Of a DNA stretch of 64,000 bases, positions 1 to 4,822 are shown one piece after another. This DNA is from Rhizobium sp. NFR03 (GTDB lineage: Bacteria; Pseudomonadota; Alphaproteobacteria; Rhizobiales; Rhizobiaceae). The position numbers were made by a program, and so were the translations under genes. A model generated the notes under the pieces. It was not told the origin of the DNA and did no database searches. It saw nothing but the letters and a program-made list of their open reading frames with translations. Where the stretch lies: NCBI RefSeq assembly GCF_900111275.1, contig NZ_FOGR01000001.1, forward strand, positions 620,001 through 684,000, in the 5' to 3' direction. The number at the start of each line of letters is the position of its first letter. Position 1 is the stretch's first letter.

Positions 1-333
1 GCCGTGCAGCGGTCGATCAAGACCTACGGCGACGCCGCCGTCGTCTCAGCATGCCGGACCCTAGTTGCAGCATGGCCGAAGGACACCGGCGCCCTCCACG
101 CCATCATGATCCAAGCGCTGGCCCGGCTGTATCGCAACAACCGCCAACACATCGACGAAGCACGAATGACCGCAAAACTGATGGGAAAGGATCGCAAGAT
201 CCTAACGGGCGACGCCGAAACCCTGCGCAGTATCGGCGGGGGTGACGCCACCGCCAGCGTCGCGAAGGTCCTCGTCGAAATCTACAACAAGAGCCTTCAG
301 CAAGGACAGATCCAGATCGGAGCAAACCGATGA
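1..333 (+). CDS. Element protein, probably 5'-truncated by the window edge
   Basis: The frame is open to the first base, so the GTG at 4 may be internal and the gene may start outside the window. The visible 109-110 residues are helical and soluble, with no signal peptide or membrane segment. A stretch reading MGKDRKILTGDAETLR followed by a Gly-rich turn reminds me of the C-terminal part of ParB-like or DUF6551-type proteins of alphaproteobacterial prophages, but the nuclease core would lie upstream and cannot be checked. Its stop overlaps the next start by 4 bases (ATGA), so it belongs to the cargo operon that runs to the integrase. Confidence 0.6.
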   Translation, partial: AVQRSIKTYGDAAVVSACRTLVAAWPKDTGALHAIMIQALARLYRNNRQHIDEARMTAKLMGKDRKILTGDAETLRSIGGGDATASVAKVLVEIYNKSLQQGQIQIGANR

Positions 334-1079
334 CCCCCCATAAAGGTCAGCAACCAAACCGGATTGAAGAAGCGGCCCGCACGATCTTTGACCTGTTGCC
401 GCACAACGGCGCAATGGGCAGCGCACGGCCTGCCTGGGATGAACCAGCGGCCGCCCCGCAGCGTGACGAGGCGCTGCGCTACGCTCACGCCGCCGCACCA
501 TTCTTGTCGCCCACCCCATCACCCCAGGCAGATGTGGAGGCGCAGGTTCTTAACCTGCTGCTCGACCATCACTATCACGGGCACTTTCTGCCTGAAGGTC
601 GATATCGCATCGCCACTCCCAATGCGGCCGACCAACCCCCATCGACCCAGAACAATGTGAAGCCGCTCGCCTGGGCGACTGTGCCGAAAACGGAAGGCGG
701 ATGGCGTTTCGTGACGGACATCGAGGCGCAGGCGGATACGTGGCGGGCTGACGGGCATACCATCGTTCCGCTCGTTGAAGCCCCGCCACCCCAGGTCAGA
801 AAGCTAGGCCACACGGCGGCGGACCTAGTTGCCAAGATCGCGCAAGTCTCTAACGCAGTCGGCTTCCAAGCGGGCGAACCGGCGATGGAGATGGCTGGCC
901 TGATCGTCTCCATCCTTGCCGCCAACCCCGAGCACATCGAGCGCTTCATGACCGAAGGCTCGGAGCTTTTCTTGGACTGCACCTTCAACCACGAAAACGG
1001 ATCGCTGACCTATCGGGCCATGAACGGGTCGATCCTGTCGCCGTCCGTCCTTCGCGAGAAGAAAGGGCAGCAGCAATGA
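330..1079 (+). CDS. Hypothetical protein of the integrated element
   Basis: 249 residues; not recognised. It starts with ATG overlapping the previous stop and ends overlapping the next start, so translation is likely coupled. The middle is Pro/Ala-rich and low in complexity. Around residue 150 is the motif VEAPPPQ, which recurs in the next protein and is encoded by the same 17-base string. The C-terminal half is more regular and ends in a Lys/Gln-rich tail. No membrane segment, signal peptide or catalytic motif is evident. The coupled position before a 3'-5' exonuclease and an integrase suggests a phage or ICE early-region protein; function unknown. Confidence 0.65.
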   Translation: MTPHKGQQPNRIEEAARTIFDLLPHNGAMGSARPAWDEPAAAPQRDEALRYAHAAAPFLSPTPSPQADVEAQVLNLLLDHHYHGHFLPEGRYRIATPNAADQPPSTQNNVKPLAWATVPKTEGGWRFVTDIEAQADTWRADGHTIVPLVEAPPPQVRKLGHTAADLVAKIAQVSNAVGFQAGEPAMEMAGLIVSILAANPEHIERFMTEGSELFLDCTFNHENGSLTYRAMNGSILSPSVLREKKGQQQ

Positions 1080-1879
1080 CCGCTACCCGAGATCGACTTA
1101 TCGGAAACCTCCTTGATCGTTGGGAGATGACACCCAACGACCTGAAGCAGGAAATGCGGGAGCATAGTTGCGGCAAGCAACTGGACGAGCTTTTGAGCCA
1201 TGTCGAAGCCCCGCCACCCCAACCGAATGTGGTGCCGATCGAACTCGACGGCGTTTCGAGGGCACTGGAAAACGGCGACGGCGTCTGGCGGTCATGCAGC
1301 GGTTGCCATGAACTTGACGAGGGCGTTGCAACCGGATCTTACAGCGATCTGATGAGGTGCCACCTTGGCATAGGCTGCAGCGAATGCGGCGGCATCGGTG
1401 CGATTTGGGATACGACCGATTACGCGGAGATGGGCGAATATATTGCGCTCACCTATCCAGACGCACCCCAACCGACAAAACCGATCGGCTATATCCCAAG
1501 CGCCTTCATTAAGCATCTGCGCGACGGAGTGCAGGGCAAAATCTTTATCTACACCGAGCCGCAGCCTTTGACGGTTGCACTGTACGTAGACCCGCCGCGC
1601 GAGCGCAATGTGCGGCAGCTGGATTGGTCCAACTTCGCTGGGCCGAAACGGAATGCCGAGTGGAAGCCGGACGATCAGGACCTGATCTACACGGCCATCA
1701 ACTTCCGAGACGATGAATGGGGCGATGCGGACGAAGACGCAGGTCAACAGATCGTCGAGCGCTTGCTTCAGGCGTGGCAGGAAGCGGAGATGGCGGCGGC
1801 CCACTATGCCCACCATCGGCGTGAGCTGCTCGATGCTGTCCAGCCCGCGACCCAAACGGAACAGCAGGAGACGCTTTGA
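1076..1879 (+). CDS. Hypothetical protein with a Cys-rich, zinc-ribbon-like segment
   Basis: 267 residues; not recognised as a whole. Around residues 73-102 there are paired cysteines (CSGC, then CHLGIGCSEC), spaced like a zinc ribbon, though I cannot show metal binding. The N-terminal part carries VEAPPPQ, shared with the preceding protein, as if both use one linker. The C-terminal third is acidic and predicted helical. It begins inside the preceding stop (ATGA) and its TGA overlaps the next ATG (TGATG), so it is part of the same coupled cluster. Lar-like restriction-alleviation proteins have comparable Cys clusters, but the similarity is too weak to assign. Confidence 0.65.
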   Translation: MTATRDRLIGNLLDRWEMTPNDLKQEMREHSCGKQLDELLSHVEAPPPQPNVVPIELDGVSRALENGDGVWRSCSGCHELDEGVATGSYSDLMRCHLGIGCSECGGIGAIWDTTDYAEMGEYIALTYPDAPQPTKPIGYIPSAFIKHLRDGVQGKIFIYTEPQPLTVALYVDPPRERNVRQLDWSNFAGPKRNAEWKPDDQDLIYTAINFRDDEWGDADEDAGQQIVERLLQAWQEAEMAAAHYAHHRRELLDAVQPATQTEQQETL

Positions 1880-2547
1880 TGCGCGATCTTATGATTGACA
1901 TCGAGACGCTGGGCAGCCGCCCCGGAAGCGTCATTTTGAGCATTGGCGCAGTCACGTTTGACGCCGAGACCGGCCAGTTGGGCGACGAGTTCTATTCGGC
2001 AATTGATCCTGAAACCGCAGTCTCAATCGGGCTGACCACTGACGTCGCAACGATGATGTGGTGGATGAAGCAATCGGAAGACGCGCGCCGTGCGGCCTTC
2101 TGCGGCGAGCGCCATTTGGCGCCGGTCCTGATTGAGTTCGCGGAATTTGTCCGAAGTGCAGACGCCAGTCGAGTATGGGCCAAACCCCCATCCTTCGATC
2201 TCGTGCTGCTCGAAGCAGCCTTCAGGGCGTGCATCCTTCCCGTGCCATGGCATTTTCGGACGCACCGCGACTGCCGGACGATCTTTGATTTGACCAACAC
2301 AAAGCAACCCGACGTCGGCACAGCGCACAACGCGCTTGATGACGCGAAGGGCCAGGCGCTAGGCGTCATCGCCGCCTATTCGACGCTCGGCGGCAACCTG
2401 CCGCCCCAGGAACAACCGAACGATGGAACGCGGCGAACCTTCGTGATCCCGGACGGCCAATATGCCGTACTCGATGAAGACGGCCGAGCGACGGGAGAGG
2501 TGCGCCCTTTGCCAACGCCCCAGGAGCCATCGGGCGGTGCGACATGA
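1879..2547 (+). CDS. DEDDh-type 3'-5' exonuclease (RNase T / DnaQ fold)
   Basis: 222 residues. The ExoI motif MIDIETLG supplies D7 and E9, D107 lies in the SFDLVLLEA stretch (ExoII), and HNALDD supplies H150 and D155 (ExoIII). This is the full DEDDh set for a two-metal exonuclease acting on DNA or RNA from the 3' end. The length and layout resemble small phage exonucleases annotated as exodeoxyribonuclease VIII-like or Rv2179c-like. ATG 1879 was preferred over the in-frame TTG at 1876 because it overlaps the previous stop in the usual TGATG form. A role in element recombination or RNA turnover is inferred from its place in the cargo operon. Confidence 0.85.
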   Translation: MRDLMIDIETLGSRPGSVILSIGAVTFDAETGQLGDEFYSAIDPETAVSIGLTTDVATMMWWMKQSEDARRAAFCGERHLAPVLIEFAEFVRSADASRVWAKPPSFDLVLLEAAFRACILPVPWHFRTHRDCRTIFDLTNTKQPDVGTAHNALDDAKGQALGVIAAYSTLGGNLPPQEQPNDGTRRTFVIPDGQYAVLDEDGRATGEVRPLPTPQEPSGGAT

Positions 2548-2711
2548 CCGCCCGCGCAATCATCACCGAGAGCGAGTTGCGCCGCATGGCGAGGGTCGTC
2601 AAGAGTGAAGGCGTCCGAGTTGGCACAGAGATCGATGGCAGGGTGTACTGGGTTGCGCCGGAGCACTCCAAGCCCGCCGCAGTTGACGAACAGGAGGAGA
2701 TCAGGCTTTGA
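2544..2711 (+). CDS. 55-residue protein immediately upstream of the integrase (possible Xis/accessory factor)
   Basis: A short ORF of 55 codons. Its ATG overlaps the exonuclease stop (ATGA) and its TGA lies 8 bases before the integrase ATG. The protein starts MTARAIITESELRRMARVVK, then GVRVGTEIDGRVYWVAP, which suggests a helix followed by a beta hairpin. From memory, small proteins of the pattern ITxADLxRAxKxAKExG...I.PDG.I.I.P often precede tyrosine integrases in alphaproteobacterial elements. That makes a recombination-directionality or integrase-linked role plausible, but unproven. Coupling on both sides and a coding-like sequence support it being a real gene. Confidence 0.7.
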   Translation: MTARAIITESELRRMARVVKSEGVRVGTEIDGRVYWVAPEHSKPAAVDEQEEIRL

Positions 2712-2719
2712 ATGATCTC

Positions 2720-3832
2720 ATGCCTCGAAAACTCCCGCTCTACGTCTGCAAGCAAAAAGACCGCAACGGCGCATGGGTCTATTATTTCCGAATAGGGAAA
2801 GGCTCGCGTACCCGGCTGCCCGATCCAAACAACGCCAGATTTCGAGCGGCCTACCAGGCGGCTTTGGCTGGCACGGACATCGAAATCAGAGATCGAGATG
2901 CGCCGAACACCATCGCGTGGTTGATCGCCCGCTATATGGAAAGTGCAGAATGGGCAGGGCTTCAGCCAGCGACCCGGAAGCAGCGAAGCAATATCTTCTT
3001 CCACGTCAAAGAGAAATCCGACGGTCGCGGCGGCAAGATCGGCATGAAGTCATATTCTCTCATCACAGAGAAGGCCGTCCGTGCCGGCATGGAAGATCGA
3101 GGCAAGACGCCGGCCGCCGCGAACAACTATCTAAAATCCATGTCCGCACTTTGCAAATGGGCCGTCAAGAACGGGCACATGAAGAGCAACCCGGCAGAGG
3201 GCGCCGACCGCTACAAGCTTAAAGGCGACGGCTTCCCTGCATGGGAGATCGAGGACGTTCGCGCCTTCTGTATCAAGTGGCCGATCGGCACGAAGCAGAG
3301 GCTTGCGATGGAACTCGCGATGCACACTGGCTTGAGACGATCTGACCTTGTCCGGATTGGACGGCAACATCTCCGAGGCAGCGCACTGTCGATAACGACA
3401 GCCAAGACGTCAGCTCGAATCACTGTCGAGCTGCCGCAACGGGTGATCGACATCATCGCGGCCACGCAAACCGGCGATCTGCACTTCCTGGTCACGGACT
3501 ACGGTAAGCCGTTCTCTGTTCCGGGTTTTGGGAACTGGTTTGGCGAAGCCTCCAGAAAAGCAGGACTAGAAAAAAACACCCACGGCCTTCGAAAACTGGC
3601 GGCGACCATGGCCGCGAATGGCGGTGCGACAGCGCACGAACTGATGAGCCAATTCGGCTGGTCGAATTCGAAGCAGGCGGAGATCTATACCAAGAAGGCC
3701 GATCGAGCACGGCTCGGGGTCAAGGCTTCCCGCATCGTCAGCGAACAGTTAGAGAACGAGCTTGCCCCTCACAGTGAAACTTGCGAGGGGAAAATTCCAA
3801 ATAGCGTAACGAATTCAAGCACTAAGAATTGA
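2720..3832 (+). CDS. int: Tyrosine recombinase / phage-type integrase
   Basis: 370 residues from ATG 2720; a TTG at 2708 would add four residues. The C-terminal catalytic domain shows R206 in TGLRRSD, a candidate K229 in TAKT, H288 and R291 in HGLRK, W314 at the second-histidine position, and the nucleophile Y323 in EIYTK. This set is typical of integrases that insert elements into tRNA genes. Residues 60-160 match the SAM-like core-binding domain. The stop codon lies 2 bases from the tRNA-Ile2 3' end, so the integrase sits at the junction and probably recombines within that tRNA. Confidence 0.95.
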   Translation: MPRKLPLYVCKQKDRNGAWVYYFRIGKGSRTRLPDPNNARFRAAYQAALAGTDIEIRDRDAPNTIAWLIARYMESAEWAGLQPATRKQRSNIFFHVKEKSDGRGGKIGMKSYSLITEKAVRAGMEDRGKTPAAANNYLKSMSALCKWAVKNGHMKSNPAEGADRYKLKGDGFPAWEIEDVRAFCIKWPIGTKQRLAMELAMHTGLRRSDLVRIGRQHLRGSALSITTAKTSARITVELPQRVIDIIAATQTGDLHFLVTDYGKPFSVPGFGNWFGEASRKAGLEKNTHGLRKLAATMAANGGATAHELMSQFGWSNSKQAEIYTKKADRARLGVKASRIVSEQLENELAPHSETCEGKIPNSVTNSSTKN

Positions 3833-3834
3833 GG

Positions 3835-3880
3835 TGGTAGGCCCGGAGGGACTCGAACCCCCAACCAAGCGGTTATGAGC
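3835..3880. other. Probable integration site (att) in the tRNA 3' half
   Basis: The integrase gene ends 2 bases from the tRNA 3' terminus, the usual geometry when an element inserts into the 3' half of a tRNA gene and restores it. The crossover identity segment should lie here. The second copy was not found in this window and is expected outside it, to the left. The exact crossover cannot be fixed from one end. Confidence 0.5.
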
Positions 3881-3910
3881 CGCCGGCTCTAACCATTGAG
3901 CTACAGGCCC
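3835..3910 (-). tRNA. tRNA-Ile2 (anticodon CAU, lysidine type)
   Basis: Read on the minus strand, the sequence folds as a 76-base tRNA with encoded CCA (plus TGG at 3835-3837). It has a D arm with TAGCTCA, anticodon loop CTCATAA (anticodon at 3875-3877), variable loop and T loop TTCGAGT. The acceptor stem has a G1-U72 wobble. CAU could mean Met, but the loop context and the GCTTGGT stretch after the anticodon stem match tRNA-Ile2, whose C34 is converted to lysidine by TilS to read AUA. It is intact and presumably functional beside the element. Confidence 0.9.
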
Positions 3911-4063: not shown

Positions 4064-4822
4064 ATGATGTCAACGCTCCGCCCGCGCCCTGCCCTTCCGG
4101 CTGGTTTCGCACCCGTGCTCGCACTTGTCGTGGCGGCCACGGCGGCCCTGCCCGCTTTCGCCCAGACACCACCGCCACCGCATCGTGAAGCGGTGATCGA
4201 GGTCAATGGCGAAGGGCGTGCGGCCGTAGCGCCGGATATGGCGATCCTCTCCTTCAGCGTGGTGACGGATGGCAAGACGGCGCGGGAAGCGTTGGACGGC
4301 AATTCGAAAGCCATGACAGATGTACTGGGTGCCCTGCGCACAGGCGGGATCGCCGACCGGGATCTCCAGACCTCCGGCTTCGCGGTCAATCCGCAATACC
4401 GTTATCCCGAAAACAACAATGGCAGCGAGCCCCCGACCCTTATCGGCTATCAGGTCGCCAATACCCTGACGGTACGCCTGCGCGAGATTGCAAAGCTGGG
4501 CGCGATCATCGATCAGGCCGTCACTCTCGGCGTCAATCAGGGTGGCAGCATTCAGTTTACGAACGACAAGCCTGAAGCTACCCTGAGCGAAGCCCGTAAG
4601 GCAGCCGTCGCCGATGCGGTCACCAAGGCACGAACGCTTGCCGAAGCCGCAGGCGTAAAGCTTGGACGGGTCATCGAAATCAACGAGAATGCCGGTCGCC
4701 CCGAACCTATGCCCATGGCCCGCGCCATGGCAAAAGACATGGCCGAAGTGTCCGTTCCTATCGCAAATGGCGAAAACAGCTACAACGTCACGGTGAACGT
4801 GACCTTCGCAATCGATCCCTGA
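4064..4822 (+). CDS. SIMPL-domain (DUF541) periplasmic protein
   Basis: 252 residues, starting at the first of two adjacent ATGs. The first 35 or so residues form a signal peptide: basic start, hydrophobic core, then ALPAFAQ. The remainder matches the SIMPL/DUF541 pattern of periplasmic proteins such as E. coli YggE: an opening IEVNGEGRAAVAPDMA strand, a central TLTVRLREIAKLGAIIDQAV segment, and a closing strand pair. Family members are linked to oxidative-stress tolerance, but their chemistry is not established. The gene is alone on this strand and ends before a bidirectional terminator. Confidence 0.85.
   Translation: MMSTLRPRPALPAGFAPVLALVVAATAALPAFAQTPPPPHREAVIEVNGEGRAAVAPDMAILSFSVVTDGKTAREALDGNSKAMTDVLGALRTGGIADRDLQTSGFAVNPQYRYPENNNGSEPPTLIGYQVANTLTVRLREIAKLGAIIDQAVTLGVNQGGSIQFTNDKPEATLSEARKAAVADAVTKARTLAEAAGVKLGRVIEINENAGRPEPMPMARAMAKDMAEVSVPIANGENSYNVTVNVTFAIDP

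Follow-up and report, generated by a model that had tools for sequence, protein, structure and literature searches.

A 64,000-nucleotide stretch of the Rhizobium sp. NFR03 genome (G000:C15:620001–684000, hereafter the window; the genome comprises 5.4 Mb in 34 contigs) begins with a chain of genes that ends in a tyrosine integrase gene directly beside a tRNA(CAT) gene (Table 1), which raises the question of what kind of element ends here, where its other end lies and how its integrase recognizes the attachment site. The reading that best joins our observations, to which we assign a probability of about 0.86, is that a 57.2-kb temperate prophage occupies the tRNA(CAT) gene, that it carries arm sites for its integrase both in the end of the integrase gene and at its left end, that residue 16 of the integrase, glutamine (Gln) or glutamate (Glu), reads these arms, and that the phage inserted beside the remnant of an older integrase gene.

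In mechanistic terms, the phage's own tyrosine integrase would insert it at the 3′ end of the tRNA gene by recombining the phage core with 15 bp of that end, an exchange that fits the arrangement in the genome, where the whole tRNA stands at the right and a 15-bp copy at the left. The integrase would grip the core and use its N-terminal domain to hold arm-type sites to either side, namely the inverted pair in the last integrase codons, 46 bp from the tRNA end, and further sites in the initial few hundred bases at the left end of the phage. Residue 16, which falls in strand one of the predicted N-terminal domain, would read one arm base, Gln going with T:A and Glu with G:C; here the correlation is observed, and the contact is what we infer from it. 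The likeness between the host flank and the integrase tail further suggests that the site had been used before, and that the phage entered beside what was left of an older related integrase gene.

Repeats at the integrase end and residue 16

The end of the integrase gene holds an inverted repeat with the consensus CCC[T/G]CAC–N–GTG[A/C]GGG, and the 22-bp motif found here (3767–3788) lies 46 bp from the tRNA end. Near-identical tails (under 8 differences in 120) were removed before repeats, copies beyond the core, residues and T-runs were counted. The repeat is present in 54 of 79 nonredundant integrases, wholly inside the integrase gene in 51 of them and in all three reading frames (30, 12 and 9), and its variable base pair is T..A in 21, G..C in 30 and mixed in 3. 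The gap between the repeat's 3′ end and the tRNA measures exactly 46 bp in each of the 14 attR loci of this set, the present one included, as well as in L105, L117 and L123 (the last with an arm variant) and in three of four further loci; overall, the spacing holds at 20 of 22 loci. The tRNAs at the 46-bp loci have anticodons for Met/Ile2, Thr, Tyr, Asn, Leu, Arg and Cys, and lie 2 to 58 bp from the integrase stop codon. In addition, four viral contigs with an attP, including the complete cyanophage Pam5, have a TGGT core at 46. Because the spacing stays fixed across frames and tRNAs, the repeat is tied to the core and not to the reading frame or the stop codon, as would fit an arm-type site. 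As a separate observation, the arm pair takes the form of direct repeats at L081, L085, L121 and L291, with ends at distances from the tRNA of 73/51, 73/51, 53/31 and 72/51 bp; the outlier is shifted by 20 bp, about two helical turns.

Copies of the repeat also occur on the far side of the core. Three viral contigs with no tRNA after the integrase gene (L106, L108 and L109), which we take to carry attP itself, show a similar repeat in the corresponding position, and past the core they hold additional copies at roughly matching places; the four copies of L109 all have CCCGCAC instead of CCCTCAC. Among loci with the repeat and at least 250 bases past the stop codon, exact copies beyond the core number 14, in 8 of the 15 loci without a tRNA, where shuffles lead one to expect 0.84 and where the other version has no copy at all; none was found at the 6 repeat-bearing loci with a tRNA. 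The prophage's own left end has one exact and two near arm copies, placed as in L106, and its alignment with L106 scores 62, when the maximum over 200 shuffles is 53. Since arm copies are present there and the alignment beats all shuffles, position 566616 is supported as the left end of this phage, and putative arm-type sites flank the core on both sides.

The base version of the arms goes together with one residue of the integrase. The discovery set comprised 53 repeat-bearing integrases (20 T, 30 G and 3 mixed; L120, L121, L123, L124, L125 and L127 were left out), in which alignment column 16 is Gln in all 20 with T:A arms and Glu in all 30 with G:C arms. From 133 parsed sequences, a new set of 72 integrases was then obtained, less than 90% identical to the discovery set and to each other, with 19 single-version repeats, 4 mixed, 14 multi-copy, 8 single-copy and 27 without the motif, 12 of these having no sequence past the stop codon (the 27 include G002 owing to a mis-set ORF end; it does have a repeat, of the G version, together with Glu). 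Single-version repeats paired Glu with G:C in 16 of 16 cases and Gln with T:A in 3 of 3, and multi-copy sites paired Glu with G in 6 of 6 and Gln with T in 8 of 8, so that all 33 new single-version pairs agree. At single sites, G stood with Glu (5/5), and T with two Gln and one Glu. Residue 16 is Phe, His, Tyr, Thr or Gly in 11 of the 72 new integrases, none of which has the T/G motif and some of which have other repeats.

A correlation of this kind could also come about if residue 16 were merely linked to the arm version by descent while another residue did the reading, given that related sequences share both the residue and the arm version. We consider this unlikely. On the best tree from a quick maximum-likelihood analysis of 90 catalytic parts, with N-terminus and tail excluded, arm version and residue undergo 11 changes apiece, no fewer than 9 of them being forced by supported branches, and all nine independent pairs on supported branches are concordant (p 0.0039). 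Moreover, column 16 is the only perfect column of 374, and the next best reaches only 0.88 and belongs to the tail, which is encoded by the arm itself. Pairings of Gln with adenine and of Glu with cytosine are known from side-chain chemistry. The structure model predicts an N-terminal domain of three strands and a helix (strands 13–17, 23–27 and 35–37, helix 45–54; pLDDT blocks of 74–86), with residue 16 inside the first strand, and these observations suggest that residue 16 reads the arm base by direct contact.

Our general proposal, which we hold to be probable, is that in a large integrase subfamily (with Rhizobiales and a cyanophage among its named members) Gln or Glu at residue 16 reads one arm base, the A of T:A or the C of G:C; that specificity flips by a single change, integrase and attachment site having switched together repeatedly; and that the arm pair stays within or beside the end of the integrase coding sequence, its distance to the core fixed whatever the frame, so that selection would hold the DNA site and not the protein tail. 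Within this subfamily, the arm rule would locate the exact att core from nothing but the integrase gene, some 46 bp beyond the repeat, and would help to place prophage ends that are cut short in catalogues, as in the IMG/VR record described below. The Gln/Glu rule would in turn open arm-site choice, and its evolution without breaking recombination, to tests on closely related integrases that occur as natural pairs.

Both the arm-binding domains and their sites are well established. Residues R210, K233, H292, R295, W318 and Y327, which we take to be the catalytic residues, are invariant in 9 aligned integrases and in 29, and lambda integrase and the heterobivalent tyrosine integrases have the same set. 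Our model (residues 5–342) matches full-length lambda Int (1z1b_A) with Z 18.8 and a whole-chain rmsd of 18.2 over 311 residues, a value indicating that the domains are set differently in the two structures. The putative arm pair differs from that of lambda in being inverted, in lying in the integrase coding end and in having another sequence. In Cluster K1 mycobacteriophages, putative arm-type sites are paired on both sides of the core, and arm position 7 is T in CrimD and G in Anaya, with integrase N-terminal residues 17 and 19 as candidate readers (PMC3203893). That comparison concerns a few close phages with attP 5′ of the integrase gene and leaves the residue unsettled (PMC3203893), whereas the present analysis covers 83 integrases (discovery and new), one column and repeated switches. 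Searches of an open-access library (subscription papers lay outside it) listed no report that describes a Gln/Glu code for the arms or places arm sites within the integrase end in this subfamily.

Ends, class and history of the element

The initial annotation had placed one boundary of an integrated element at this tRNA, with the other end outside the window, and had proposed to look to the left for a repeat of the tRNA 3′ half (3835–3880); the lack of any direct repeat within about 200 kb would have spoken against it. The far end was located by searching this genome: the tRNA 3′ end recurs at C15:566616–566630, 57,219 bp to the left. The boundary and the outlying far end are borne out, and a direct repeat is present, though only 15 bp (3835–3849) and not the 3′ half are repeated. 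A 13-bp copy of the core at C15:518070 was rejected as the far left end and put down to chance, since it closes a reading frame (presumably that of a TonB-dependent receptor) on the 3′ side and shares only that stretch; a tandem second prophage left of attL was rejected as well, as only about 100 bp of integrase tail is found there, preceded by a flavin reductase ORF.

None of six same-genus relatives has the element at this site: four (G001, G002, G004 and G005) have an empty site in which the tRNA and the flavin reductase gene of the left flank are 199–211 bp apart, G003 has its tRNA and flavin reductase match on different contigs, and G006 has a different integrase at tRNA(CAT). The same cargo does not, then, stand beside this tRNA in all relatives, and the empty-site comparison suggested earlier speaks for an integrated element. 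In IMG/VR, the uncultivated virus genome 2599185156_000001 (53,091 bp) has an integrase and a TerL that are 100% identical to those of the prophage, and by this identity it is the same prophage or that of a sister strain. In comparison with the element delimited here, it starts at C15:570742, stops at the integrase stop codon and is without attL, the left arm region and the first 4.1 kb of the prophage.

Reading frames were called in nine 20-kb stretches of this genome; 71 ORFs were called in the element, and 43 of its proteins were scanned in at least one family library. Between the att copies are head genes, namely TerL, portal (TIGR01537), HK97 capsid (TIGR01554) and S49 head protease, tail genes (tape measure TMP_2, tail fibre, and phrog_1302, 290, 2048 and 5616), and genes for an endolysin, a replication initiator and Cro/CI-like and CII-like regulators. 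Prophage, integrative and conjugative element and genomic island had all been offered as options; the structural genes settle on the first, and none of the 43 scanned proteins (71 ORFs called) is a relaxase or a mating-pair protein. A satellite or cargo-only genomic island was rejected because the element has its own head and tail genes. By its gene content, the element is a tailed-phage prophage with an HK97-type head, and the tail genes point to a siphovirus-like nature. No tail sheath family was found among the element proteins scanned (general library scans on a subset of the ORFs). The ORF before TerL was not assigned as a small terminase, its sole match being a PHROG of unknown function. 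In the phage collection, Bradyrhizobium phages ppBeUSDA76-1 and ppBdUSDA122-1 are the first matches for TerL (49%), and ppBdUSDA122-1 is the first for the capsid (32%); at the DNA level only two records match C15:600001–620000 (20 kb), neither of which is ppBeUSDA76-1 or ppBdUSDA122-1. The prophage itself is ordinary.

The DNA just outside the element appears to have a history of its own. About 100 bp to the left of attL resemble the 3′ end of the integrase gene, this flank scoring 100 against the integrase tail, and the flanks beyond the tRNA at empty sites score 64 in G002, 56 in G005 and 50 in G001 (shuffle maxima 25, 28 and 25). In the G002 empty site the old repeat is 74 bp from the anchor, as in the copy beside attL, and this distance is shorter in G001, G004 and G005. 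The decayed repeat copies in these four empty sites suggest traces of an older related prophage, and the simplest reading of the sequences is that such a prophage was lost by deletion before the species split and left an integrase tail behind, beside which the present phage would have inserted.

The likeness between host site and integrase tail could instead reflect capture of the host tRNA 3′ flank by a phage, in which case the host would have kept no integrase remnant. This would agree with the likeness being confined to the host genus among the flanks tested, where the four empty sites all score 26–64 (shuffle maxima 23–28) and none of 20 flanks from other genera exceeds 18, and with scores of 15 and 17 for the occupied or rearranged sites of G003 and G006. 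However, the same repeat occurs at the same spacing in integrases of other tRNA targets and other hosts, the cyanobacterial phage included, and the copy left of attL extends to the integrase codons for KASRVVS, which makes capture improbable and leaves the loss of an older prophage as our preferred reading. Elsewhere, flanks of the tRNA(CAT) gene in two other genera (L029 in G017 and L030 in G009) are alike and have GTCCCAC and GGTGAG pieces; these are perhaps footprints of another kind of integrase.

Inside the element, the left ∼10 kb (566.9–577 kb) has a GC content of 0.47–0.56, against about 0.60–0.62 in the remainder, and carries glycosyltransferase-like genes. A mosaic sister prophage of 25.3 kb in G002 (L217, L218), located at tRNA-Leu(CAA) with attL at 3484514 and attR at 3509801 (G002:C1) and carrying G-version arms and Glu16, has 331 bp where the present element has about 10.2 kb. 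From this the low-GC segment looks like an insert in the left end of the phage, and may perhaps be cargo that alters the cell surface. Novelty had been guessed to lie in the cargo beyond the window; this segment of about 10 kb with its glycosyltransferase genes partly agrees with that guess, though the most interesting part is the junction of integrase and tRNA inside the window. The low GC, the glycosyltransferase-like genes and the 331 bp of the sister prophage would equally fit a separate, older island, with the phage proper starting near 577 kb, but this is quite unlikely, as there is no second att copy near 577 kb (only a site with 3 mismatches at 11704 of L014) and arm-like motifs stand to the left of the segment, right after attL, and the segment therefore lies inside the element that would excise. 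The G002 sister prophage also has an apparent second recombinase gene near its left end.

Exceptions and a hairpin alternative

Several observations weigh against the reading of a prophage with residue-read arms at a reused site. The repeat, in the form sought, is missing from 25 of the 79 integrases, and the spacing is 45 in G002, 36 in L241 (10 bp less, near one helical turn) and 47 in L100, which has a different motif. Seven of the 15 repeat-bearing loci without a tRNA have no exact copy beyond the core. As for residue 16, L254 combines a single T motif with Glu, mixed arm pairs occur in three discovery integrases (Glu, Glu and Asp) and four new ones (all Glu), and the new set was not wholly blind, since the tails of several genome loci had been seen beforehand. 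With respect to the history of the site, the empty-site flank of G004 resembles the integrase tail weakly (26, with a shuffle maximum of 23), and the ∼10 kb of low-GC cargo may have been inserted later.

The integrases with mixed T:A and G:C arms, in which residue 16 is Glu or Asp, are those of L074, L119, L242, L248, L257, L262 and L198. They are possible states between the two specificities, and such pairs hint at a path by which the switch could be made.

That the repeat is an RNA hairpin, acting as a transcription terminator or mRNA stabilizer and not as an integrase-binding site, is very unlikely, for although it is inverted, GC-rich and near a gene end, and a T-run follows it in L079, a T-run adjoins just 1 of the 54 repeats on the plus strand and 5 on the minus strand, the spacing is set relative to the tRNA core and not the stop codon, the copies beyond the core occur in both orientations, some relatives have direct repeats that are unable to form a hairpin, and the base version tracks an integrase residue.

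Window features and neighbouring lineages

Table 1. Features of the integrase–tRNA junction, in window coordinates unless stated otherwise
Feature	Position	Strand	Basis or remark
attL core	G000:C15:566616–566630 (window −53384 to −53370)		15 bp exact
3′ end of 272-aa prophage ORF beginning at C15:619515, before the window	1..333	+	ORF call
Prophage ORF	330..1079	+	Pfam and PHROG matches all at E 0.36 or above
Prophage ORF	1076..1879	+	No family match in Pfam or PHROGs
Rv2179c-like 3′-5′ exonuclease	1879..2547	+	PF16473 7.8e-49, PHROG 255
55-aa gene directly before the integrase, candidate excisionase (recombination directionality factor)	2544..2711	+	By inference only; same place in relatives
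Tyrosine integrase	2708..3832	+	Pfam PF00589, PHROG 1, alignment, structure model and lambda integrase match
Codon 16, CAA, Gln (codon 12 if start is ATG 2720)	2753..2755	+	Goes with T:A arm
Putative arm-site pair in last integrase codons, CCCCTCAC-N10-GCGAGGGG	3765..3790	.	One mismatch
attR core	3835..3849	.	Exact copy of attL
tRNA(CAT), integration target	3835..3910	-	ARAGORN
Host SIMPL (DUF541) gene, right flank	4064..4822	+	PF04402 4.9e-58

The ORFs at the left of the window had been described as coupled and facing the tRNA, and the integrase as ending 2 bases from its 3′ end. Both descriptions are accurate, as the five frames from 330 onward overlap by a few bases, all run toward the tRNA, and the integrase stop falls 2 bp short of it (Table 1). 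By alignment, ATG 2720 is the integrase start conserved in relatives, and TTG 2708 may be four codons too early. The ARAGORN label of the tRNA is Met; ‘Ile2’, the name used in the initial annotation, is one that we take to be plausible from features of the sequence. The DNA past the tRNA had been called core genome, and the SIMPL match recurs near the same tRNA in same-genus relatives and in many other genera (61 genomes searched), in agreement with that view.

Homologues of the 55-aa gene precede the integrase gene in relatives (33 tblastn rows, with some contigs counted twice). Six members of the family were scanned and gave no PHROG match under E 0.07, and a structure model from 11 members has a mean pLDDT of 68; that this gene encodes an excisionase is our guess. 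Further inside the prophage, a ParB-like domain is fused to an MT-A70/type II methyltransferase (L016:12900–15509, C15:612900–615509, minus strand), and a PADLOC search for defence genes on 10 proteins returned only methyltransferase matches in this fusion and two weak exonuclease matches. Near the left end of the phage lies a gene for an SOS response associated peptidase (SRAP; L014:18222–18947, C15:578222–578947).

Integration hot spots at tRNA genes have been described in Sinorhizobium meliloti (PMC11476347). Like the present phage, Agrobacterium phage Rivra and Sinorhizobium phage phi2LM21 are phages of Rhizobiaceae hosts with annotated tyrosine integrases, but their integrases are of another lineage. 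phi2LM21 is annotated at tRNA-Phe(GAA), unlike the prophage at tRNA(CAT), whereas Rivra (L130) carries the core TGGTGGGCCCGGAGG of the same tRNA(CAT) beyond its integrase gene, as does our element, and because of this core tRNA(CAT) can be regarded as a shared integration site. The repeats in Rivra are GGCTAACC, and a second integrase lineage with TGGCTAACC repeats is found at the same tRNA(CAT) end in L026 (G006) and L130 (Rivra).

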